From: Enterococcus sp. ZJ1622
Lineage (GTDB): Bacteria > Bacillota > Bacilli > Lactobacillales > Enterococcaceae
DNA: 64,000 nt
Assembly (NCBI RefSeq): GCF_011038845.1
Contig: NZ_JAAKDW010000005.1
Location: forward strand, 1-64,000
Reading direction: 5' to 3'
Shown here: positions 5,233 to 47,120 of the stretch, piece after piece
How positions within the stretch are numbered: position 1 is the first letter of the stretch
Layout: every line of letters begins with the position of its first letter
Notes under the pieces: model-generated
Seen by the model: only the letters and a program-made list of their open reading frames with translations
Database searches by the model: none
What the model was told of the DNA's origin: nothing
Translations under genes and position numbers: made by a program

Positions 5233-5892
5233 TCAACGATTCATTTCTTGATTGAAAGCTTTGATCAAATTGATCGTGACCACACTTGTATTAGAGAAGT
5301 AATCTCCGATGTGCTGTTTTCTCTGACTGAAGATCGTAGGCAGATAACCGATCAAAAGCCACGGGAATTTCAGGATGAATCGGCATGCCCCTTCTCTCAC
5401 CAGTACAGTCGGCCAGCTCAATTCCTCTTCATCAAAACTGATGACGCGGATCCCAAAGATCATTTTCCCAATCGTTTGTCCATGGTTCCATTTTGTCAAT
5501 AACACGAAATATGCTAAATAAAGGATCAGTGCGATCAGTCCGTAAATACTAAGATAAGAATCTGATGCTTCAAGCCATCCCAAATTTACGGCAACGCCTA
5601 AAGACAAACGTGTCAGCGAGCCGATACATACCAGATCGATGATAAATGCAAAGAATCGTATCCAGAACCCTGCATAAAAATAATCGGGAAAGTTATTCGT
5701 CCTTGGTTCGTCCTTGGCTTCTTTCGTATATTTCCCCCATTTATTTTGATTTTCTTTGATTTCTTCCGGTGACATAGGTTCCTTTTCAAAAGACTGCAGC
5801 ACCTTTTGCGAGAACGTAGGATCTGGTCCCACAGCTGGCTGATCATTTCGTCTTTCTGCTTGATCGACCTTTTCTTCTGACATCTCAGCCAT
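5233..5892 (-). CDS. RDD-family membrane protein
   Basis: A 219-residue protein. Residues 1-70 are soluble and charged, and a C-terminal RDD domain follows with several membrane segments (FWIRFFAFIIDLVCIGSL, YLSIYGLIALILYLAYFVLL, FPWLLIGYLPTIF). The conserved Arg and Asp of the family fall in the first of these (R in FWIRF, D in FIIDL). GQTIGKMIFGIRVI is also typical. RDD proteins have been linked to ion exchange and stress responses, but a substrate cannot be named. It starts at ATG 5892 with GGAGGTG, two bases after sppA, so the two are translationally close and form one operon. Confidence 0.85.
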   Translation of the reverse strand: MAEMSEEKVDQAERRNDQPAVGPDPTFSQKVLQSFEKEPMSPEEIKENQNKWGKYTKEAKDEPRTNNFPDYFYAGFWIRFFAFIIDLVCIGSLTRLSLGVAVNLGWLEASDSYLSIYGLIALILYLAYFVLLTKWNHGQTIGKMIFGIRVISFDEEELSWPTVLVREGACRFILKFPWLLIGYLPTIFSQRKQHIGDYFSNTSVVTINLIKAFNQEMNR

Positions 5893-5894
5893 GG

Positions 5895-6923
5895 TTATTC
5901 ACCTCCATAATAATACATCGCTTTTGGTGATTCGGCCGTTCCCAAATTCTCAAGAAGCGTAAGGATCTGACTAGTTTCTGAGGCTTTCAGTCCCTGGAAT
6001 TGCGCCAATTTCGAACCAAACCATGTATTAGCAAACCCTGTCGAATTGGTGGTGTATTCCACTAATTCTGCTTTTTCTAGGTTTTGCTCTTTACGCATCG
6101 CTTTCAGTGCATCTTCCGGAAAGCCTAATTCATCGACTAATCCGACTTCTTTCGCCTGTACTCCGTCATAGATACGGCCATCAGCGATTTTTTTCACTTC
6201 ATCCTCCGATTTATGACGTCCCTCGCTGACCACTTTTACAAAACGATTATACGCACTGTCGATATAAGCTTGCAAGACAGCATGATCTTCTTTTGTTTCA
6301 GGACGTGTACTGGAGCCCATATCTTTCAATGCACCACTTTTGACTGTCGTATCTTCGACGCCTAGTTTTTCCAGCAGGCCGGAGTAATTCAGACCAGACA
6401 TAATGACGCCGATCGAACCAGTCACAGTTTCTTCTGTTGCATAGATTTTGTCTGCTTGGGCAGAAATATAATAGCCGCCACTTGCTGCCATGCTTTTCAT
6501 GCTCACGTACATCGGCAGTTCTCGTTCTTGACGGATCTCATTCAGTGTCTTTGCGATCTCAGCGCTTTCATACACGCCGCCTCCAGGAGAGTTTACTTCC
6601 AGCAAAATCCCTTTGACTGTCTTATCTGCTTCGATGGCTTTTAGCTGTTCCATAAAATTTTCATGATTATAGCCTTCAGAAGCAAAGAACCCTGAAGAAC
6701 CGCCGCTTGCGATCGTTCCGTCAACAGTCAATTTAGCGATTTTTTGTTCACTGTTCCCTTCTTCTAGAACTTGCGGCGTCAGCTCATCATCGCCATAAAG
6801 CAAACTATTCAAGCCGCCGATTTTCATTTCTTCTTGAGGTTTTGCGGTCAGTCCTGCTGAAACGAATGAGACGACAAGCAACCCTGCTGCGATTAAAACT
6901 GCTATCCAGCGTTTTTTATTCAT
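5895..6923 (-). CDS. sppA: Signal peptide peptidase SppA (S49 family)
   Basis: A 342-residue membrane-anchored serine protease of the short SppA type, which degrades signal peptides released after secretion. Residues about 7-27 form an N-terminal anchor. The S49 core shows VNSPGGGVYESAEI, then MAASGGYYIS with the nucleophile serine, and VKSGALKDMGS with the general-base lysine. The start ATG follows AAGGGG. It is encoded between a small acidic protein and the RDD protein with gaps of 12 and 2 bases. Confidence 0.93.
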   Translation of the reverse strand: MNKKRWIAVLIAAGLLVVSFVSAGLTAKPQEEMKIGGLNSLLYGDDELTPQVLEEGNSEQKIAKLTVDGTIASGGSSGFFASEGYNHENFMEQLKAIEADKTVKGILLEVNSPGGGVYESAEIAKTLNEIRQERELPMYVSMKSMAASGGYYISAQADKIYATEETVTGSIGVIMSGLNYSGLLEKLGVEDTTVKSGALKDMGSSTRPETKEDHAVLQAYIDSAYNRFVKVVSEGRHKSEDEVKKIADGRIYDGVQAKEVGLVDELGFPEDALKAMRKEQNLEKAELVEYTTNSTGFANTWFGSKLAQFQGLKASETSQILTLLENLGTAESPKAMYYYGGE

Positions 6924-6935
6924 GTGAGTTCCCCT

Positions 6936-7226
6936 TTAATATAAATTTTTTATCACGATCACCGTTTCTTTTGCTTCTTCTGCATTCATCCGTGCCGCTT
7001 TTTCTTCTAATGAGTAGCCGGAGAATGTTTCTTTTGTCAGTTCATCTTCTACTGTGAATTTCTGCGCTGTTTCGATACTTAATGCATCGGGCGAGATCTC
7101 CTGTATACTGTCCCAGCCGGTATCCAGAAAAATTTTGGTATCGTCTGTGACGTCTGGTCGCTGTTCAAATTTAGCTAGCTGTTCTTTTAACATCCCTAGT
7201 GTCAACACTTCGATTTTTGCTTCCAT
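6936..7226 (-). CDS. Small acidic protein of unknown function
   Basis: A 96-residue soluble, acidic protein (MEAKIEVLTLGML...). I do not recognise its family. It has no signal peptide, membrane segment or cysteine. A strong GGAGG site precedes ATG 7226, and the gene ends 12 bases before sppA, so it is the first gene of the sppA-RDD operon. It looks like a genuine conserved gene rather than a chance frame because of its ribosome site and tight spacing. Confidence 0.75.
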   Translation of the reverse strand: MEAKIEVLTLGMLKEQLAKFEQRPDVTDDTKIFLDTGWDSIQEISPDALSIETAQKFTVEDELTKETFSGYSLEEKAARMNAEEAKETVIVIKNLY

Positions 7227-7370
7227 TTCTTTTCCTCCTTTATTTTATTAATACTATTGTACCGAACTCCCCAAAAAGATGATAGTCGAAATTCAATCTT
7301 TTTTTGGAAGACAGAAATACGTTACATGCCCCAATAAGATATATACCAATTTTTATTTTTTACTTTTCCA

Positions 7371-7400
7371 TTGACAATAGCACCTAATAAAAGTTATTAT
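7371..7400 (+). promoter_or_regulatory. Promoter of glmS
   Basis: TTGACA at 7371-7376 and TATTAT at 7395-7400 are separated by 18 bases. A transcript starting about 7407 would include the whole ribozyme upstream of glmS. Confidence 0.7.
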
Positions 7401-7444
7401 TTTAGTTGTTTCCAGATAAAACACTTCAAGGAGGATAGATAGAC

Positions 7445-7620
7445 CTTTTAAGGAATAGCGCCTGATCTGTTCAAACAGATGACGAGGAGAGGGTTAATCG
7501 AAATATTCGGCGGATGGCCCTAGGGACTGCACTCTATAGAGAATCCATAAAAATTATCTGCGAAGGTAAAACAAAGGGAGTCTCCTGCAGCTGGAAACAT
7601 CTATACGAATCTATCAAAGA
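7445..7620 (+). ncRNA. glmS ribozyme-riboswitch
   Basis: The leader of glmS contains the conserved core of the glmS ribozyme. The AGCGCC cleavage site has its scissile bond between A7457 and G7458. It is followed by a P2-type hairpin (gatctgttcaaacagat), GAGGAGAGGGTTAATCGAA and the CGGCGGATGGCCC and AGGGACTGCACTCT blocks. In this class glucosamine-6-phosphate acts as cofactor for self-cleavage, which leads to mRNA decay and lowers GlmS. The 3' boundary (P3/P4 elements) is approximate. A reading frame that crosses it is not a gene. Confidence 0.92.
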
Positions 7621-7637
7621 AAGTAGGATGTTTTTTT

Positions 7638-9446
7638 ATGTGCGGAATTGTTGGAATTATCGGATTGGAAAATGTAACACTAGGATTGATCAGCGGGTTG
7701 GAAAAACTGGAGTATCGCGGGTATGATTCTGCTGGGATTTTTGTAGCAGACTATGCTTCAGATCATTTAGTCAAAGCTCAGGGACGAATTCAAAATTTAA
7801 AGGAAAAACTATCTTCAGACGTTCAAGGGACTATCGGGATCGGCCATACGCGTTGGGCTACTCACGGCGAACCTTCTGAAGAAAATGCGCACCCTCATAC
7901 TTCTCAAAGCGGTCGTTTCGTCCTTGTACACAACGGCGTGATCGAAAATTTTGATGAATTAAAAGCAGATTACTTAGCAAATGATACATTCATCGGACAA
8001 ACGGACACGGAGATCATCGCTCATCTGATTGAAGCATTTGCAAATGAAGGACGTACGACAGTCGATGCATTCAAAGAAGCTTTACGAGTTATCAGAGGTT
8101 CGTATGCCTTTGCTTTGATTGACAGAAATGCTCCTGACACGATCTACGTAGCTAAAAATAAAAGTCCTTTGCTTATTGGCCTAGGTGATGGTTTCAATGT
8201 CATCGCTAGTGATGCAATGGCTATGCTTTCTCAAACGACAGAATTCGTGGAAGTCGAAGATGGTGAAATGGTCACTGTCACAGCTGACGATGTCGTGATC
8301 CAAACGCTTTCTGGCGACATGATCTCCCGTCCATCTTTCGAGGCTCAAGTAGATGCTTCTGATATCGAAAAAGGAACTTATCCATTCTACATGCTGAAAG
8401 AAATCGATGAACAACCGATCATCATGCGACGGATCGCTCAAACTTATGTGGATCCTGACAATCGTGTATCTCTTGACGCTGGACTTCTGGAAGCTTTGAC
8501 AGACAGCGATCGGATCTATATCGTTGCTTGCGGCACTAGCTACCATGCAGGACTAGCGGGCAAACACACGCTAGAAACTTTGACTCAGATTCCTGTCGAA
8601 GTACATCTGGCAAGTGAATTCGGCTACAATATGCCATTGCTTTCAAACAAGCCTTTCTTCATATTCCTGAGTCAAAGCGGCGAAACAGCTGATAGCCGGC
8701 AAGTTCTTGTCAAAGTGAATCAATTAGGTTATCCTTCTTTGACTATCACCAATGTTCCAGGGTCTACTCTTTCACGTGAAGCCTCTTTCACTTTACTGCT
8801 TCATGCAGGCCCAGAAATCGCGGTAGCATCTACAAAAGCTTATACTGCGCAAATCGCTGTTCTGGCTTTACTGGCAAAATCAGTCGGTGATTCAAAAGGG
8901 ATCGACGAAGCGCTCCATTTCGATATGACTCATGAATTGAGTTTAGTCGCTTCTGCGATGGAAACAGTGATTGCACAAAAGGACTATCTAGAAGAGTTAG
9001 CTGCTGCCTATTTGAGTGATACACGGAATGCGTTTTATATCGGACGCGGTTCGGATTATGATGTCTCTCTTGAAGCAGCGCTTAAATTAAAAGAAATCAG
9101 TTATATCCAAGCTGAAGGATTTGCAGCTGGCGAATTGAAACATGGAACGATCGCTTTGATCGAAGAAGGTACGCCTGTTATCGGGATCATCAGTGAAGAA
9201 GTGACCGGTGCCCACACCAGAGGAAATCTGAAAGAAGTGGAAAGCCGCGGCGCAAAAACATTAGTGATCGCCGTCGAAGGACTGGAAAGAGAAAGTGATC
9301 AGCTGGTTCTGCCAGCAGTCCACCCTTACCTGAGTGCTTTGGCAACCGTAGTACCGACTCAATTACTGGCGTACTATGCAACACTGCTGAGAGGATTCGA
9401 CGTAGACAAGCCACGTAATTTAGCAAAATCAGTGACAGTAGAATAA
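7638..9446 (+). CDS. glmS: Glutamine--fructose-6-phosphate aminotransferase (isomerizing)
   Basis: A 602-residue enzyme that makes glucosamine-6-phosphate from fructose-6-phosphate and glutamine, the entry to peptidoglycan amino sugars. The N-terminal glutaminase domain begins MCGIVGI, with Cys2 as nucleophile after removal of Met. The two SIS sugar-isomerase domains follow (ACGTSYHAG and [10 protein letters not shown] near the middle, YIGRGSDYD later). The C-terminus [12 protein letters not shown] is the family signature. The gene is controlled by the ribozyme upstream and supplies the substrate for GlmM, encoded about 600 bases away on the other strand. Confidence 0.98.
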
Positions 9447-9460
9447 AAGCAAGAAATCTT

Positions 9461-9505
9461 ATGAGTAAGAAACGCATCTGTCTTGCGCGTTTCTTACTCA
9501 TTTTT
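9461..9505 (+). terminator. Terminator of glmS
   Basis: A perfect 15-bp stem: ATGAGTAAGAAACGC (9461-9475) pairs with GCGTTTCTTACTCAT (9487-9501) and is followed by TTTTT. Confidence 0.85.
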
Positions 9506-9601
9506 CATTCAGTACATTCTATTCCTTAGTGCTTTTCTGTTAAACTAATACTAAATACTAGACAGCTGTTTTCGTTCAGCATGACACACAAGGAGGATAT
9601 T

Positions 9602-9889
9602 ATGGTCACTACTCAGAGAAACTGGCATATATTGCGTTTTGCTATTCTTGGTACGGATAGCGTGATCACTGTTTTTATGTTGTTTTCACTTATTTTTGGT
9701 ACAGGTGGTTTTCTGCCTCTGTACATGGCCTCACAAGTTTGTTCTGTCGTCATTTGCAACTCTATCAATAAAAAATTAGGTATTCAAGCTTCTGAGAATG
9801 CGAAGGTGCTTTTTTTGCTTGTCGTTTTATTGTCCCTTTTCTCTTGCATCGCCATGATGATTCTTACACAGTTCGCTTTTTTCAAATAA
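9602..9889 (+). CDS. Small membrane protein of unknown function
   Basis: A 95-residue, very hydrophobic protein with about three predicted membrane segments: FAILGTDSVITVFMLFSLIF, a GGFLPLYMASQVCSVVIC stretch, and FLLVVLLSLFSCIAMMIL. ATG 9602 is preferred over the in-frame ATG 9581 because an AAGGAGG site lies seven bases upstream of it. No family is recognised. It has its own terminator and stands alone between glmS and glmM, so no functional partner can be read from the context. Confidence 0.7.
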   Translation: MVTTQRNWHILRFAILGTDSVITVFMLFSLIFGTGGFLPLYMASQVCSVVICNSINKKLGIQASENAKVLFLLVVLLSLFSCIAMMILTQFAFFK

Positions 9890-9894
9890 AAAAT

Positions 9895-9937
9895 CAACAA
9901 GGAGCTGCGACAAAAGACTTGTCGCAGCTCCTTGTTG
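9895..9937 (+). terminator. Strong terminator hairpin
   Basis: A 19-bp perfect stem, CAACAAGGAGCTGCGACAA paired with its complement at 9919-9937. It lies between the small membrane protein and the convergent glmM and could serve both strands, although flanking T runs are weak. Confidence 0.75.
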
Positions 9938-10012
9938 AAATTGTTCCTTGTGCCTCAGAGTTAAACAGCAGGCTCACAACCTCTTGTTCTCAGTTTTTTC
10001 TAGTGATGCGTT

Positions 10013-11368
10013 TTACTCCAGTCCGATTTCTTCTTTGACTACTGCTGCGATTTTATCTACATAGTAGTTTACTTTCTCATCGGTAGGAGCTTCTGCCATG
10101 ACGCGAAGCAATGGTTCTGTTCCGGAAGGACGGACTAGGATTCTTCCGTCATCTCCCATCTCTGCTTCTGCTTCTTCGATCACTTTCTTGATTGCAGGTA
10201 CTTCCATAGCACCATTTTTGTTGCTGACACGGATATTGACTAATTTTTGTGGATAGATCGTGACTTCAGCAGCAAGCTCAGATAATTTCTTCCCTGTCTG
10301 TTTCATGATATTCAGCAGCTGGATACCTGAAAGCATCCCATCTCCAGTAGTATTGAAATCCAAGAAGATCATATGACCGGACTGTTCACCGCCAAAGTTA
10401 TAATCATTTTTACGCATTTCTTCTACGACATAGCGATCACCCACTTGAGTGACGACGTCTTTTAGCCCAATCGCTTCTACAGCTTTATGGAAGCCCAGAT
10501 TACTCATGACTGTCGTCACGATCGTATCTTTCTTCAGACGATTCTTTTCTGCAAGATACTTCGCACAGATATACATGATCTTGTCTCCATCGACGATATT
10601 TCCCAATTCATCGACTGCAATGATCCGATCGCCATCACCATCGAATGCTAAACCAACATCTGCACCTTTTTCAACGACCATTTCAGCTAACCGCTCTGGA
10701 TGAGTAGAACCTACGCCATCATTGATGTTCAGTCCATCTGGGTTTGTGCCCATCGTATAGAAGTCTGTTTCCAGGTCGGCAAACAATCGATTCACCGATG
10801 TGGCAGTAGCTCCGTTTGCCGCATCTACGCAAACTGTCAGACCAGAAAGATCGCCATTGATGGTTTGAACAAGAAATTGCGAGTATTTCAGCAAGCCTTC
10901 TGGAAATTCTTCGACTGTACCTAATCCTTCAGCTGAAGGTCTTGGTAATTCGTCAACCTCTGCATCTAACAATGCTTCGATCTCCAGTTCCTGATCGTCG
11001 ACCAATTTGAATCCGTCTGCACCGAAAAATTTGATTCCGTTGTCTTGTGCCGGATTGTGGGAAGCAGAGATCATTACACCTGCACTAGCTTTTTGCAAAC
11101 GTGTCAAGTATGCGACTCCCGGTGTAGAAATCACACCTAATTGAAAGACTTCGATCCCAACTGACAATAATCCGGAAATCAATGCTTCTTCTAGCATTTG
11201 ACCAGATATTCTTGTATCACGTCCCACTAAAACACGCGGGCGTTTCCCTTCTTTTTCATGCTGGCTCAACACATAACCGCCACAGCGGCCTAATTTGAAT
11301 GCTAGCTCTGGTGTCAGCTCCTTATTTGCCTCGCCACGAACACCATCTGTTCCAAAATATTTACCCAT
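10013..11368 (-). CDS. glmM: Phosphoglucosamine mutase
   Basis: A 451-residue enzyme that converts glucosamine-6-phosphate to glucosamine-1-phosphate for UDP-GlcNAc and cell-wall synthesis. It shows the family's active-site serine loop ISASHNP (near residue 100), the metal loop DGDGDR (about 240-245) and the phosphate-binding RPSGTEP loop near the C-terminus. It is the third gene of cdaA-cdaR-glmM, the usual Firmicute arrangement. In related species GlmM binds CdaA and inhibits c-di-AMP synthesis, linking wall precursor supply to the second messenger. Confidence 0.98.
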
Positions 11369-38650: not shown

Positions 38651-38917
38651 TTAATCATAGACATTTCTTCGGTGTCCCACTTGAATAGCGATAACAACCA
38701 TTTGATTATCTTCTATCTCTACCAACACACGATATTTGCCAATTCGATAACGCCATTGTCCTGAACGATTAGCGGTCAATCCTTTGCCGAATTTTCTCGG
38801 ATCGTCAATACCATCAATATGTTGATACAGCCATCGAACAATCAGCGTCGCTTGATGCTTGTCCATTTTACGAAGTTGTTTCTGAATTTCAGGCGTGAAT
38901 TCTAAACGGTAGGTCAT
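38651..38917 (-). CDS. relE: RelE/ParE-type toxin
   Basis: An 88-residue protein of the RelE/ParE superfamily, starting MTYRLEFTPEIQKQLRKMDK and including the typical LTANRSGQWRYRIGKYRVLVEI core and a C-terminal VGHRRNVYD segment with the usual basic and aromatic residues. In this family the toxin cleaves mRNA on the ribosome. The four-base overlap with the upstream antitoxin gene (ATGA) shows coupled translation. The hairpin repeat just after the stop probably ends the operon. Confidence 0.9.
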   Translation of the reverse strand: MTYRLEFTPEIQKQLRKMDKHQATLIVRWLYQHIDGIDDPRKFGKGLTANRSGQWRYRIGKYRVLVEIEDNQMVVIAIQVGHRRNVYD

Positions 38918-39144
38918 TCCAGCCCTCCAAATTCATGAAGGATTTCTTCCATGGATACTGTTGTTTTTCCACTTTCTACCCAATGTTTATGGGCAATTTC
39001 AGCCGTTTGACGATCGTATTCATCTTCTAGTTGTTCCATCGAATAGGTTTTTAGAAGCTCAGATAAAGTAATCCCATAAAATTCCGCCATATAAGAAAGC
39101 CATTCTTTTTCGGCATCACTCACACGAACCGTAATCATAGCCAT
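38914..39144 (-). CDS. relB: RelB-type antitoxin (ribbon-helix-helix)
   Basis: A 76-residue protein whose N-terminus MAMITVRVSDAEKEWL is a ribbon-helix-helix DNA-binding fold; the C-terminal half (TTVSMEEILHEFGGLE) would bind and block the toxin. It is the first gene of the pair and has its own strong promoter with an operator palindrome, so autorepression by the antitoxin or the complex is expected. Confidence 0.88.
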   Translation of the reverse strand: MAMITVRVSDAEKEWLSYMAEFYGITLSELLKTYSMEQLEDEYDRQTAEIAHKHWVESGKTTVSMEEILHEFGGLE

Positions 39145-42552: not shown

Positions 42553-42945
42553 TTATTTATTCATTCTTTTTTTCTTCCTTTTTGTATAATCAGATAACAT
42601 TTTCATCAATGCGATATTCGTTCTTATTGGTGCTTTACGTTCCAGCTCCTCTAGATCATGGAATGTCCTCTCTTGCTCCTTTCTTTCACTGAATGACCAA
42701 TTATAAGGATACATATCGAAGAAAGAGACCATCGATAGATCCAATTTTTCACAGATTTGTATCAGTTCTCTAATGGTGAGTTCGCTGCTCTTTCCGGCCA
42801 CGAATTTTTCCAAACGAAGAAACAGCGGTCTCTCCTCTTGAAATAGCTGATCGAGGTCGATATTTTTTTCTCGTGCCACATAAATCAATTGCGTTCTAAT
42901 TAGTTCCATATCTTCCGGGATCGGAAAAACGGTCTTCGGTGTCAC
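42553..42945 (-). CDS. Helix-turn-helix protein, possible regulator of the RiPP locus
   Basis: About 130 residues. The N-terminal half (REKNIDLDQLFQEERPLFLRLEKFVAGK, then ELTIRELIQICEKLDLSMVSFFDM) resembles a Cro/CI-type helix-turn-helix; the C-terminal tail is very basic (YTKRKKKRMNK). The frame is open to 42996. GTG 42945 is chosen because AGGAGG lies eight bases upstream; ATG 42951 would be only two bases from that site. It lies 189 bases downstream of the PqqD-like gene on the same strand, so it may be in the same transcript or separate. A regulatory role is inferred. Confidence 0.6.
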   Translation of the reverse strand: MTPKTVFPIPEDMELIRTQLIYVAREKNIDLDQLFQEERPLFLRLEKFVAGKSSELTIRELIQICEKLDLSMVSFFDMYPYNWSFSERKEQERTFHDLEELERKAPIRTNIALMKMLSDYTKRKKKRMNK

Positions 42946-43134
42946 AATCATTTCCTCCTGTCTTTTCTCTTCATTTCTTATTGTATTAGTTATCATTCTG
43001 TAGATAAAGCGTTTTCTAAAAATTGTTTCATTTTATATATCCCTTGAAACTGTTGGAAAAAATATGATTCCGCTATTATTTGTCGTTATTTTCTAAAAAC
43101 AAAAAACCGGAATCCGTTATGAAAAAATTGGTTG

Positions 43135-43392
43135 TCAAAGAATGATCGAATGTCTATGTAACTCACTGAGAAATTCATCGACAAAGCGGTCTTTTTCGTC
43201 ATTTGTGAATTCTTCTTCGGAAGCAAAAGTTTCTTTTGTCTTTTCTTTTATTTCCGTTCGTGAACGATCCTTTTTCAACAAATCAAAAATATAAAAAGAT
43301 ACCTCGTTGTCTAATAGATATACTTCATTGTCCATGGACAAATAGATAGTCTTTCCAAGTTTTTCATAGACTAGTGCGCGATTCAATTTCAT
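43135..43392 (-). CDS. PqqD-like RiPP recognition element protein
   Basis: An 85-residue free-standing PqqD-like protein. The pattern VYLLDNEVSFYIFDLLKKDRS, a helical EIKEKTKETF, and the end VDEFLSELHRHSIIL match the winged-helix RRE fold that binds leader peptides and presents them to the modifying enzyme. ATG 43392 (MKLNRALVYEK) has GGAGG eight bases upstream; the frame extends to 43428 but without a ribosome site. It overlaps the 3' end of the radical SAM gene by 29 bases, a strong sign of coupled expression and shared function. Confidence 0.75.
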   Translation of the reverse strand: MKLNRALVYEKLGKTIYLSMDNEVYLLDNEVSFYIFDLLKKDRSRTEIKEKTKETFASEEEFTNDEKDRFVDEFLSELHRHSIIL

Positions 43393-44617
43393 CGATTGTT
43401 CCTCCTGTCTCCTGATAAGTACAAGCACGATACATCTGATATTTGATCGTTTCTTTCAATAATTCGCATTCTTCTTTTTCTACTCCTTGTCGGTCATTTG
43501 TTTTATAGTAATGATGTGCTCTGCAGCCGCCTCCGCATAGATATCGGAAAGAACAGTTTCGACAAGCTTTTAGATTTTCCACATTTTGAGAGTCGATTAG
43601 CTGAATGCTTGCTTCATTAAAAATGTCCGCTACTCTTTTTCTTCTGATATTTCCTAATCTATACTCATCCGTTTCTAGTAATTTACATGCATAAATTTCT
43701 CCGATTGGGTTAATTGCAAATTCTCCAATACCTAATCCGCAAGAGTCTTTGATGGTGAATGGCTGCATCAATGGAGAACGTTCTGTATTTTTTTCTTTCC
43801 ATTCGATCATCTTCCGTTCTTCAGCAGTCAAAGAGATTTCAGCCGTATTTGCTCGCCCTAATTCACTGAAACCGCCGATCTTATAAGAAATGCCATTTTC
43901 TTTGAAGAACTCGATCGTTTCGTCCACGAATGGAAGATTTTGATTCGTGACGATGGCATTTGCCGAAATATTTTTGTACCCTAACTTCAATAAATGTCTG
44001 ATTCCGCGCATGGCAATGGCATAACAGCCTCTTCCTCGGTTTTCATCATTGGCTTTTGGATCAATCGAATCAAGACTGACAGTGATTGCCGCGCATCTTT
44101 TAGCCAAAAATGCTGCATTTTTTTTAGTGCCAAGTATCGTCCCATTGGTGATTAGTCCTACTGTTAACCCGATGCGGTTCGCGTAATCGATATATTTCAG
44201 GGAATCATGGTTCAGTCCGATCTCTCCGCCCGTAAAGATCACTTTTCCAACACCGGCGTCCTTCAATTGATTCAACACATCGATCCATTCAAGAAATGTC
44301 AAGCTGTCAGGATATTCTTTCGTTAGGTCTGCTTCTGCATAACAATAGACACATTTCAGATTGCATTGATGTGTCAGGACTAAATAGGCAGTTTTCGGGG
44401 TCGTTCTTTCCGGCTTCTCAATCTCCAGAGGCTCCTTCAGCAATAACTGGAATATATTTAACTTGTTCTGCGTACTTCTAGAAAGTTCCGTGTATCTATG
44501 TTGTTGAATCAATTGCAGTTCTTCTTCATCAATCAAGATCCATGTACTTCTTAAAACATTATGCAATAGGAATCGCCCAGCGTAGCTGTATGCATATAGA
44601 TTCTCTTCGATCTTCAT
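43364..44617 (-). CDS. Radical SAM/SPASM peptide maturase
   Basis: A 417-residue radical SAM enzyme. An N-terminal domain (1-75) precedes the cluster motif CNLKCVYC (Cys 85, 89, 92) and the SAM-binding FTGGE (128-132). The C-terminal SPASM domain has Cys 293 and 311, then CRNCSFRYLCGGGC (352, 355, 361, 365) and Cys 384 and 399, enough for two auxiliary 4Fe-4S clusters. Enzymes of this design form thioether, C-C or other links on ribosomal peptides. AAAGGAG precedes ATG 44617. A 28-codon Cys-X-Cys peptide gene lies upstream and a PqqD-like gene overlaps downstream. The exact reaction cannot be read from sequence. Confidence 0.9.
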   Translation of the reverse strand: MKIEENLYAYSYAGRFLLHNVLRSTWILIDEEELQLIQQHRYTELSRSTQNKLNIFQLLLKEPLEIEKPERTTPKTAYLVLTHQCNLKCVYCYAEADLTKEYPDSLTFLEWIDVLNQLKDAGVGKVIFTGGEIGLNHDSLKYIDYANRIGLTVGLITNGTILGTKKNAAFLAKRCAAITVSLDSIDPKANDENRGRGCYAIAMRGIRHLLKLGYKNISANAIVTNQNLPFVDETIEFFKENGISYKIGGFSELGRANTAEISLTAEERKMIEWKEKNTERSPLMQPFTIKDSCGLGIGEFAINPIGEIYACKLLETDEYRLGNIRRKRVADIFNEASIQLIDSQNVENLKACRNCSFRYLCGGGCRAHHYYKTNDRQGVEKEECELLKETIKYQMYRACTYQETGGTIDEIESRTSL

Positions 44618-44782
44618 TCCGTGATTCTCCTTTCATAAAGAGATTGAGGTCAGGATAAACAGGCTTCCCGACCTCGATCCCACAATTTTGAATAAACCGT
44701 GGCCCGCCATTACAAGATAGCGTTTCCAGATGAGGGGGAGTCATCTTTGGAATACAGGTTTTGTGGTGAATGTTGTTTCATT

Positions 44783-44813
44783 GCATACACTGCATTTATT
44801 CAGCTGTATAAGC
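44783..44813 (-). other. Imperfect hairpin between the precursor and maturase genes
   Basis: GCTTATACAGC and GCAGTGTATGC on the minus strand form an 11-position stem with two mismatches and one wobble around a nine-base loop. It lies in the 264-base spacer between the precursor stop and the radical SAM start, and could reduce readthrough or protect the precursor mRNA. No T run follows. Confidence 0.35.
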
Positions 44814-44881
44814 AGTGGGAACTTCTCAAGTAGAATAACTATTAAAACTAGGATCTGAAACTAGATTCTACGATTCGTTTT

Positions 44882-44968
44882 CTAGGAACCTTGACCGGAA
44901 AGCAATCCGCAGGAACAAGGTGCGGCTACGCTACCTGATACTTTTTTTAGTTCTGGTTTCTTGAACAT
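44882..44968 (-). CDS. RiPP precursor peptide candidate, 28 residues with CSC core
   Basis: ATG 44968 has a GAAAGGAGAA site at a proper distance and gives 28 codons ending in TAG. The peptide starts MFKKPELKKVSG (a short basic leader) and ends APCSCGLLSGQGS, a small-residue core with a Cys-Ser-Cys motif. It has its own strong promoter on the minus strand and is the first gene upstream of the radical SAM maturase. Short leader, Cys-rich C-terminus, neighbouring maturase, PqqD-like protein and exporter together make a substrate role likely. I do not recognise it as a described family. No double-glycine processing site is evident. Confidence 0.8.
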   Translation of the reverse strand: MFKKPELKKVSGSVAAPCSCGLLSGQGS

Positions 44969-45035
44969 AGGCGTTCTCCTTTCTTTATAATTAGGAAAAA
45001 TGAGAATTTTTAAGTTTCCTCCTTTTCCTAGTTAT

Positions 45036-45065
45036 AGTATAATGTTCTTTGTAAAGCCTTGTCAA
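45036..45065 (-). promoter_or_regulatory. Promoter of the precursor peptide gene
   Basis: On the minus strand TTGACA (45065-45060) and TATACT (45041-45036) are separated by 18 bases. The -10 box lies within the palindrome TTATAGTATAA (45032-45042) and overlaps the plus-strand -10 of the exporter gene, so the two transcripts could compete or share a regulator. Confidence 0.75.
45038..45043 (+). promoter_or_regulatory. Likely -10 box of the exporter gene
   Basis: TATAAT on the plus strand, 43 bases before ATG 45087. The upstream -35 region (about TTTCCT, 17 bases away) is weak, so activation by one of the two HTH proteins is possible. Confidence 0.5.
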
Positions 45066-45086
45066 TAGATTCTGGGAGGAAAAAAT

Positions 45087-46661
45087 ATGAAGAAATTCTT
45101 AGAAACGAATCAACGCTATCTATTCATCTCTGTTATTTTAGTGATTGTGACCGTCCTTACGACATTTGTTGCGCCATTTATTCTTCAAACCACGAATGAA
45201 CAAAAAACTTCTCTCTTTTCGCTTATTTTCTTGATCGTCTGCGCGATGTCTCTGTCCTACGTTTTTCAGATAGCATTGATTATTTATCGAGAAAATTTTG
45301 CTGAGAAATTCAATCAGCGGACGTTTACCGATTTACTAAAAAAAATCTATCATTTGAATTTCGAAAAATACATTTCGCTTGAATCGGGGAATTTAGTGAC
45401 TCGTTTATTCCAGTTCGTCGATACGAATTACCTATTCATGACTACTAGTCTGTTTTTGATCTTAAAATCTTCTATCACGATCATGGTTATTCTTCTAGTT
45501 TTTCTTAATTTAAGTATCCCTGTTTTTTTAATCACTTTCATTCTTCTGCCTTTAAATCTGATTTCCTATCGATGGATCAATACTTCTCTAAATGAACGAA
45601 TCGAAAGGATGCAACTAAAAACCACTGACACGACTAAAGACCTAATTTCTCTTTTAAACAGCGCTGAACAGTTCAAAATGATCAAAAATTTCCAAGTCGT
45701 AGAAACGCTAGTACTTCCTTCTGTTTCAAGCATGTATAAAAATTTGGCTTCAACCAATAAATTTGCGCAAGTCACGAGTTATACGATCACATTTGTCAAT
45801 CAGCTAGCACAAAATGTCATATTCATCCTCATTAGCTATCTCGTCAACCAAGAGATCCTTCAGTTGAACAATATGATGGTTGTCAGCATCCTGCTGCCCT
45901 TGTTTTTCACTTCTTTATCCGATCTGACAAAAATCAATGTCGATTATCGAACACTAGCGGCTAATCAAAGATTCGTGGATCAAAATCTCCAAGCAAGTCA
46001 AGAAGATCAAACTGGGACAGCAATCGGTCACATAACAAAGATTGGATTGGATCAACCAGATATCATCGTCGGTCAAGGCAGCAAACATCTTCACCTGAAA
46101 GTGGAAGACACCTTTGTCGCTGGTGATATCGTTTATATCGAGGGCCCCTCCGGATCTGGAAAATCAACATTAATCAAAGCGATACTAGGCTTCTATCCGA
46201 CAAATGGGATTTTGATCAATGATTTACCCGCACATACGCTCAATTATCAGAAAATTAGAAAAAACATAACATATCTTTCTCAAACTAGTATGTTTTTTTC
46301 AGACACACTTGAGTATAATATTACTTTAGGAGGACCTTTATCTTTTTCCGAAAAAGAAAAGTTCGAAAATTCTGTTCTTTTAGCGCCGATTTTTAAAAAC
46401 AAGTCTTGGGATTCTGTCATAGTCGACAATGGAGCCAATCTGTCTGGCGGAGAAAAACAGCGTCTGTTGATTGCCAGGATGCTTTTACAAGAAAGTGATG
46501 TTTGGATTTTGGATGAAAGCACGAGCAGCATCGATAAAGATTCTTCAGATGCGATTTTCGAAACACTGCTCCAGCTAGGGAAAGATAAAATCATCCTTTT
46601 TACTTCTCATGACAAATCAAATGCTGAGTACGCCAATAAAATGATTCATATAGGAGGATAA
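45087..46661 (+). CDS. ABC exporter (fused membrane and ATPase domains), RiPP locus
   Basis: A 524-residue half-transporter of the exporter type. The N-terminal two thirds hold about six membrane helices (from YLFISVILVIVTVLTTFVAP to MMVVSILLPLFF). The ATPase domain has Walker [10 protein letters not shown] at about 353-361, the signature LSGGEKQ at about 452-458 and Walker B VWILDESTSSID. There is no N-terminal C39 peptidase domain, so it does not cleave a leader itself. ATG 45087 follows GGGAGG. It is transcribed away from the precursor across a 118-base spacer and probably exports the modified product or gives immunity. Confidence 0.85.
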   Translation: MKKFLETNQRYLFISVILVIVTVLTTFVAPFILQTTNEQKTSLFSLIFLIVCAMSLSYVFQIALIIYRENFAEKFNQRTFTDLLKKIYHLNFEKYISLESGNLVTRLFQFVDTNYLFMTTSLFLILKSSITIMVILLVFLNLSIPVFLITFILLPLNLISYRWINTSLNERIERMQLKTTDTTKDLISLLNSAEQFKMIKNFQVVETLVLPSVSSMYKNLASTNKFAQVTSYTITFVNQLAQNVIFILISYLVNQEILQLNNMMVVSILLPLFFTSLSDLTKINVDYRTLAANQRFVDQNLQASQEDQTGTAIGHITKIGLDQPDIIVGQGSKHLHLKVEDTFVAGDIVYIEGPSGSGKSTLIKAILGFYPTNGILINDLPAHTLNYQKIRKNITYLSQTSMFFSDTLEYNITLGGPLSFSEKEKFENSVLLAPIFKNKSWDSVIVDNGANLSGGEKQRLLIARMLLQESDVWILDESTSSIDKDSSDAIFETLLQLGKDKIILFTSHDKSNAEYANKMIHIGG

Positions 46662-46664
46662 GCG

Positions 46665-47120
46665 ATGAGAGATTATTATTCAGTCAATGAACTAGCAAAA
46701 CAATTAGGTGTCACAACACGCTCGATTAGAAATTATCTTCATGAAGGAAAGCTTAAAGGAACGAAGGTCGGCGGGCAATGGAAATTTTCTGAACAAGATC
46801 TTTACGAATTTTTGTATGGCAGTCAGGAAAAACCGATGTCGCGCAGTGAAAATCTATTTATGCTCAAAGCCCCTATCGTCATGAAATTCAATCTCTATTG
46901 TGAAAAAAATGAAGTACTGAATCAGTTCAGAGATGACGTCATCAATTATCATTTAGATGTGTATGCTAATCAAAGAGATCGACTATTGCAATATAACTTG
47001 CTTAGAGAAGAGCATGCTGAACTTTTGATTGGCGGAAATTTTCGTTACATCACGAATTTTAGTGCTTGGATTAATGAACAGCTGATGAAACAAACTGATA
47101 TCTCGCTTTCCGATAAGTAA
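46665..47120 (+). CDS. Excisionase/MerR-type HTH protein
   Basis: A 151-residue protein. The N-terminus (YSVNELAKQLGVTTRSIRNYLHEGKLKGTKVGGQWKF in two parts) is a helix-turn-helix of the excisionase (HTH_17)/MerR type. The C-terminal 95 residues, largely helical, have no named family and could sense a ligand. It starts three bases after the exporter stop with AGGAGG upstream, so it is co-transcribed with the exporter and is the likely local regulator. A recombinase partner for an excisionase role is not present in the window. Confidence 0.75.
   Translation: MRDYYSVNELAKQLGVTTRSIRNYLHEGKLKGTKVGGQWKFSEQDLYEFLYGSQEKPMSRSENLFMLKAPIVMKFNLYCEKNEVLNQFRDDVINYHLDVYANQRDRLLQYNLLREEHAELLIGGNFRYITNFSAWINEQLMKQTDISLSDK

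Follow-up and report, generated by a model that had tools for sequence, protein, structure and literature searches.

Does a 28-codon open reading frame (ORF) beside a radical S-adenosylmethionine (SAM)/SPASM gene of Enterococcus sp. ZJ1622 encode the precursor of a ribosomally synthesised and post-translationally modified peptide (RiPP), and which of its residues would the enzyme join? The ORF lies within positions 1 to 64,000 of contig NZ_JAAKDW010000005.1, the whole stretch that was analysed and that is called the window below, and an earlier note on this DNA had described it, from the letters alone, as part of a radical SAM RiPP locus. The locus is read here, at a probability of about 0.7, as a compact operon for a RiPP of StsA/StsB/StsC type, which would make a sactipeptide, most likely with two nested links. 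Loci and genomes used for comparison carry L and G numbers. The parts of the operon are as follows, with the evidence for each in brackets.

44882..44968, minus strand: precursor peptide, 28 aa, with leader F2-x-x-P5 and core PCSCGLLSGQGS (conservation, selection, ladder rule)
44976..44982, minus strand: ribosome-binding site AAAGGAG of the precursor (sequence)
45036..45065, minus strand: promoter of the precursor operon, sigma-70-type, TTGACA-18-TATACT (11/12 consensus matches)
43364..44617, minus strand: radical SAM/SPASM maturase, 417 aa (CxxxCxxC and seven SPASM cysteines, profile matches, tree)
43135..43392, minus strand: PqqD-like protein, a discrete RiPP recognition element (RRE), 85 aa, overlapping the end of the maturase gene (Pfam, structure model)

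Precursor, maturase and recognition element

The precursor ORF encodes the peptide MFKKPELKKVSGSVAAPCSCGLLSGQGS. Of 15 genomes in the genus, 7 had it, among them that of the window, with 64-75% identity in the other six, and fourteen positions were invariant across the six distinct Enterococcus precursors (M1, F2, K4, P5, L7, K8, K9, G12, C18, C20, G21, G25, G27, and S28). Synonymous sites were strongly diverged with the encoded protein preserved; the ratio of nonsynonymous to synonymous differences (pN/pS) was 0.18-0.91 over 15 locus pairs and below 0.4 in 10 of them. The precursor is thus a genuine conserved coding gene under purifying selection, and this cross-genome comparison supports it more than the ribosome site and promoter do. 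The strict motif C.CG.{1,6}G.G was found in one of 870 small ORFs in the window, namely the precursor. The promoter was the best-scoring of 11 promoter-like sites in the region, where 12.7 were expected by chance, so that the number of sites was not above chance. The stretch that separates the precursor from the maturase gave no support for an RNA hairpin (z-score 0.13).

The maturase carries its CxxxCxxC motif at C85, C89, and C92 and its SPASM cysteines at C293, C311, C352, C355, C361, C365, and C384, all of them invariant in the eight aligned sequences. Among 105 family genomes it was present at E <= 1e-40 in seven, the same that hold the precursor, with pN/pS of 0.24-0.32 (6 pairs of intact genes). 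Among 85 NCBIfam families its top match was StsB, at 193 bits and short of the cut-off of 625, and it also matched mycofactocin, ranthipeptide (PapB), and SCIFF enzyme models. The only NCBIfam matches of the precursor at E <= 1 were StsA (16 bits, cut-off 42) and an StsA-related CxC model (16.1 bits, cut-off 75).

The PqqD-like protein scored 17.5 bits against Pfam PqqD, under the cut-off of 23.4, and the same model matched 5 of 8 of its Enterococcus homologs at E <= 1. Its structure model has the RRE-type winged helix (mean predicted local distance difference test score, pLDDT, 92), and the best match in the PDB was the leader-bound lasso RRE TbiB1 (template modelling score 0.78, E 3.8e-4). 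A leader motif F/Y/W-x-x-P, 12-15 residues ahead of the first cysteine, was found in 18/18 distinct precursors and takes the form F-x-x-P in the window. PMC12710340 describes StsA as bound by the discrete RRE StsC through WxxP, where double-alanine changes abolish binding, and describes W/Y/LxxP as a broad recognition class bound by StsC and PqqD-type RREs. By analogy, the PqqD-like protein would bind the leader at F-x-x-P and present the core to the maturase. The latter would then form sactionine links, each from a cysteine sulfur to an alpha carbon in the core, two in all with a loss of 4 Da, and the product would probably be trimmed by a housekeeping protease and act as a narrow-range antimicrobial or signal.

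StsA/StsB/StsC of actinomycetes (NF045558, NF045559, NF045574) share with the window a precursor, a maturase of the radical SAM/SPASM type, a discrete RRE resembling PqqD, and a leader motif of the W/Y/LxxP class, to which the F-x-x-P of the window belongs. The window differs in the linkage of its locus to a module of an HTH_17 (helix-turn-helix) regulator and an ATP-binding cassette (ABC) transporter. Its precursor has 28 residues and two cysteines, where that of Streptantibioticus cattleyicolor has three (StsA's own core lay outside this comparison). Since its precursor and maturase both fall below the StsA and StsB cut-offs, the locus was called a related variant; it is a short, distinct relative of these recently named sactipeptides. 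The formation of sactionine links by StsB of Streptomyces sparsogenes was reportedly shown by Precord et al. in 2023, together with further new sactipeptide groups, among which the present loci may be.

Three elements of the earlier note, namely the short precursor gene, its ribosome site and promoter, and the radical SAM/SPASM enzyme with an overlapping PqqD-like gene, were borne out at the coordinates listed above. Its claim that the precursor matches no known type was not, as StsA/StsB/StsC, missing from the types it had considered, is the nearest.

Related loci and the cysteine-glycine pattern

With the StsB model, a search of 398 genomes of the class gave 7 further ones, and a search of 392 in the order to which one of these, G543, belongs gave 9; three were common to both, leaving 13 loci. 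In the window's order, Lactobacillales, 5 of 395 genomes matched at E <= 1e-45, all in the genus and none outside it, and a search of 395 Lactobacillales genomes with NF045559 gave three weak matches, none above the cut-off. NF045558 matched 8 of 10 chosen genomes at E <= 10, but also 7 of 14 control genomes; its matches in G521, G561, and G497 coincided with precursors. Each of the 13 loci encodes a short CxC peptide 431 to 79 bases before the maturase match and on its strand, with the strict motif in 12 (L126 has only CxC). In all 13, L126 and L127 included, the maturase is followed by a PqqD-like open frame. The four of these PqqD-like proteins that were scanned all exceeded the Pfam PqqD cut-off (25.3-32.9 against 23.4 bits). 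The order precursor-maturase-PqqD-like gene was thereby found in 7/7 Enterococcus loci and 13/13 others. The radical SAM RiPP locus of the earlier note, with a cysteine-containing precursor conserved beside maturase homologs, is in this respect upheld; the contrary case, that no short cysteine-containing ORF would be conserved there, was examined, and CxC precursors do adjoin the homologs.

A plasmid search returned S. cattleyicolor (two records) and one mycofactocin enzyme; upstream of the S. cattleyicolor maturase match stands a CxC peptide with 25.9 bits to the StsA model, under the cut-off of 42. A search of viral contigs gave no relative, and PADLOC matches were at generic superfamily level only. 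Among 11,549 small ORFs of 132 loci, many of them overlapping, the strict motif occurred 61 times, in family precursors and once in L034. Chance CxC ORFs upstream of other-enzyme genes in L036, L040, L044, and L048 had no such glycine pattern.

In a maximum-likelihood tree of 32 maturases, a branch with support of 98/98 held 4 Enterococcus enzymes, 13 from other Bacilli, that of the actinomycete Streptantibioticus, and one from L034 (Acidobacteriota). A CxC peptide stood beside all 19 and the strict motif beside 18 of them, and the motif stood beside none of the 13 other rows. Grouping of the 18 rows without L034 was unrejected (approximately unbiased test, p-AU 0.507). The tree was built from sequences other than StsB itself; L048 (a 133-residue fragment) and L049-L054 (the last six of 25 loci) were kept out of it, and the broken maturases of L019 and L020, as well as that of L017 (a near-copy of L018), out of both alignments and tree.

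The 18 distinct precursors follow one rule: their alternating cysteines are matched in number by alternating glycines, the first of which stands at +5 from the last cysteine. Nine have two cysteines and nine have three, with glycines at +5, +7 (and +9); the chain ends before +9 in all nine two-cysteine peptides, and some three-cysteine peptides (L126, L111) have glycine at +11 as well. L034, whose ORF has two CxC segments, was kept outside this count. The distance from the last cysteine to the first glycine is fixed and rungs are added outside it, which fits nested pairing and not a fixed distance between each cysteine and its acceptor. From this family-wide pattern the most likely links in the window are C20-G25 inside C18-G27, a nested two-rung hairpin. 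Because the candidate acceptors are glycines, links to beta or gamma carbons are unlikely.

A similar nesting, from N-terminal cysteines to C-terminal acceptors, is known from thurincin H, subtilosin A, and thuricin CD, whose cysteines are at least three residues apart, unlike the alternating CxC of the window with its putative glycine acceptors. We tentatively propose, as a generalisation that is somewhat less probable than not, that CxC peptides are 'Cys-Gly ladder' sactipeptides in which n cysteines are nested with n glycines over a constant four-residue loop, and that the enterococcal member, with two rungs, is the smallest form and shares with the ABC exporter its control by HTH_17 through TAGGAAA. 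If the ladder holds, rung number and ring topology could be read from the DNA sequence, and the window would offer a very small, genetically simple enterococcal thioether peptide system with a sharp structural prediction (Cys-Gly pairing, 4 Da loss).

Several further ORFs were noted among the compared loci. In L034 (522-3502), a 47-residue double-CxC ORF lies 5' of two radical SAM ORFs in a row, of which one belongs to the 98/98 branch. It extends past the start that was called for the radical SAM ORF next to it; by eye, glycines stand at +5 and +7 after both CxC segments. L038 (Lysinibacillus) and L048 (a Bacillales metagenome-assembled genome) have in common, upstream of a radical SAM gene, a peptide of sactipeptide-like look, GCSACSIGA-(I/L)-CL...GPVPDFEVA...SG. 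L047 of Enterococcus phoeniculicola was rejected as an ortholog of the window's locus (23% identity, another gene set, outside the 98/98 branch); at 5355-10101 it has, like L041 (Macrococcoides), a pair of neighbouring radical SAM genes along with ABC matches, and both loci may be other RiPP clusters.

Alternative chemistries and loss of the locus

Several points weigh against the nested sactipeptide of StsA/StsB/StsC type, besides the unreached cut-offs and those given below with the subjects they concern. The Enterococcus and Bacilli maturases join at 82/84 only, and several long branches leave the deeper order of the tree unsure. Shuffled tails reproduce the ladder at p 0.006-0.292 per peptide; no single peptide is therefore convincing, and the ladder gains its strength from recurring in about seven lineages. 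The ORF listings, read without a profile search for proteases or immunity proteins, showed no recognisable gene for either, and the link chemistry is a prediction from the sequence pattern.

The cysteines might instead be joined in unnested rings, each to the residue three further on (C18-G21, C20-L23). This improbable arrangement would follow streptosactin of Streptococcus (GGG type), which resembles the window's peptide as a small sactipeptide with two cysteines, a glycine-rich core, and a radical SAM/SPASM enzyme. According to PMC8172795 and PMC13361665, streptosactin has two unnested four-residue rings, CxxS/CxxG, under Rgg/SHP control, with the core NASCGPSHSCGGGR (PMC12445099). Such rings would suit G21, which all six distinct Enterococcus precursors keep. 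The window core is CxCGxxxGxG, unlike CxxS/CxxG, and position 23 varies among L, F, and I in Enterococcus; moreover, alanine and not glycine follows the last cysteine in L108, L110, L126, and L127, whereas the glycines at +5 and +7 are kept in 18/18. Neither of the regulator-like proteins flanking the window's operon matched an Rgg model in profile scans.

Other radical SAM chemistry, such as ranthipeptide S-beta or S-gamma links, epimerisation or another edit, or cysteines left free or in a disulfide, was judged to be just as improbable as the unnested rings. The matches of the maturase to the mycofactocin, PapB, and SCIFF models speak for it. In the PDB, the first match of the maturase profile was the sactisynthase SkfB (E 2e-21), and the second, 5wgg/5why, which we take to be CteB, a ranthipeptide enzyme, was level with it (E 2.1e-21), so that the PDB ranking leaves the chemistry of the maturase unsettled. 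The invariant partners of the cysteines, however, are glycines, which have no beta carbon, and the best NCBIfam model, StsB, is that of a sactipeptide maturase.

Other sactipeptides were compared as well. Enteropeptin (KGR type) of Enterococcus cecorum is, like the window's putative product, a radical SAM sactipeptide from Enterococcus; PMC12395415 gives it one cysteine in a thiomorpholine, N-methylornithine, and the core MKGOCPPS. The Kp10 sactipeptides of Paenibacillus were rejected as the same family, as the two Kp10 precursors given in PMC7343975 are different, and so was SacP23, described as CLI_3235-type. Among the literature matches listed, no title or abstract dealt with this enterococcal peptide, in a search that did not extend to supplementary tables or to papers under subscription.

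That the locus is in decay and does nothing in this strain is slightly less probable than the unnested rings or the other radical SAM chemistry. This alternative draws on the state of the relatives: the maturase of L019 has an internal in-frame stop and that of L020 is split by a frame change (2/7 loci broken), and those of L017 and L018 have no ATG, GTG, or TTG start. From the two broken genes and the two without a usual start it follows that the system is dispensable; it is also old in the genus. Relics occur in other species at the same kind of site. The window, L019, L020, and L021 adjoin genes that by eye look like ribF/truB and/or an SDR gene (a methyltransferase-like gene adjoins L016-L018), and ribF-type sites elsewhere hold an RRE with HTH_17 (L070 and L071, and L068 in pieces), HTH_17 with an ABC fragment (L067), or HTH_17 alone (L069). 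L071 has kept promoter, palindrome, and ribosome site, with no precursor or maturase match. In the window all parts are open, and the selection on maturase (pN/pS 0.24-0.32) and precursor (below 0.4 in 10/15 pairs) argues against decay there. Three of the relics, at 8300-9800 (L071), 8600-9960 (L070), and 9700-10100 (L067), retain neither a precursor nor a maturase match.

That the CxC peptide is unmodified and serves as a metal-binding or redox peptide, with the enzyme acting elsewhere, is very improbable: CxC can bind metals, but the peptide adjoins the maturase and PqqD-like genes in 7/7 Enterococcus and 13/13 other loci, and its leader motif suits the RRE class.

Promoter palindrome and neighbouring genes

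The following features lie around the operon.

44992..45030, no strand: palindrome TAGGAAAA-N23-TTTTCCTA, a probable operator, directly after the -10 box and ahead of the ribosome site
45087..46661, plus strand: ABC half-transporter (Pfam matches to membrane and ATPase domains and to no peptidase domain), a module partner that is not a constant feature of RiPP loci
46665..47120, plus strand: HTH_17 (excisionase-type) protein with a second alpha/beta domain in its model, a probable TAGGAAA-binding regulator
42553..42996, minus strand: small HTH-like ORF, with no HTH family matched in profile scans, in this genome only and outside the system

The HTH_17 gene adjoins the precursor in 6/7 loci and the ABC gene in 3/7. 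A further 8 loci have the pair on its own, L072 within the genus and L097-L099 and L101-L104 outside it, with 34-42% (ABC) and 29-38% (HTH_17) identity to the window's proteins and no maturase match of at least 100 residues; L100 has HTH_17 without ABC. ABC and HTH_17 are a separate Enterococcaceae module, and the RiPP parts proper (precursor, maturase, RRE) can be set apart from it. The earlier note had inferred export of the product and named an ABC exporter that faces away from the operon. Export by this gene was weakly supported, given the stand-alone pairs and the 3/7 loci, and the gene was rejected as an obligatory exporter. The second domain of the HTH_17 model has a ferredoxin-like look (pLDDT 79), and the model gave no PDB match at E <= 0.001.

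TAGGAAA was the only 7-mer common to all 11 ABC promoters of the module, three of which are those of RiPP loci themselves and two pairs of which (L017/L018, L103/L104) are close relatives; shuffle fractions per promoter were 0-0.12. The pattern TAGGAAAAN{11,30}TTTTCCTA occurred once in the 3.02 Mb genome. Over 15 genomes it was found at 10 places in 9 genomes: four RiPP promoters (G000, G005, G009, G013), one relic promoter (G007), and five elsewhere. The reversed control pattern was found at 7 places in 7/15 genomes, so the palindrome pattern is not rarer and only its placement at the promoter is telling. L017 and L018 retain one good half-site, and L016 is without linked ABC, HTH_17, or palindrome. 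Since the RiPP promoter bears the TAGGAAA palindrome, co-regulation with the module is likely: HTH_17 would probably bind the start region of the precursor operon next door and probably also control the ABC exporter gene, as the regulator of both units. The locus thereby offers a candidate regulator-operator pair.

The HTH protein at 42553-42996, which the earlier note had counted in the gene set, is present there; it was found in 1/15 genomes of the genus and was rejected as a conserved regulator. Further off in the window, at 38651-39144 on the minus strand, two small overlapping ORFs have, by eye, the look of a RelB/RelE-type toxin-antitoxin pair.

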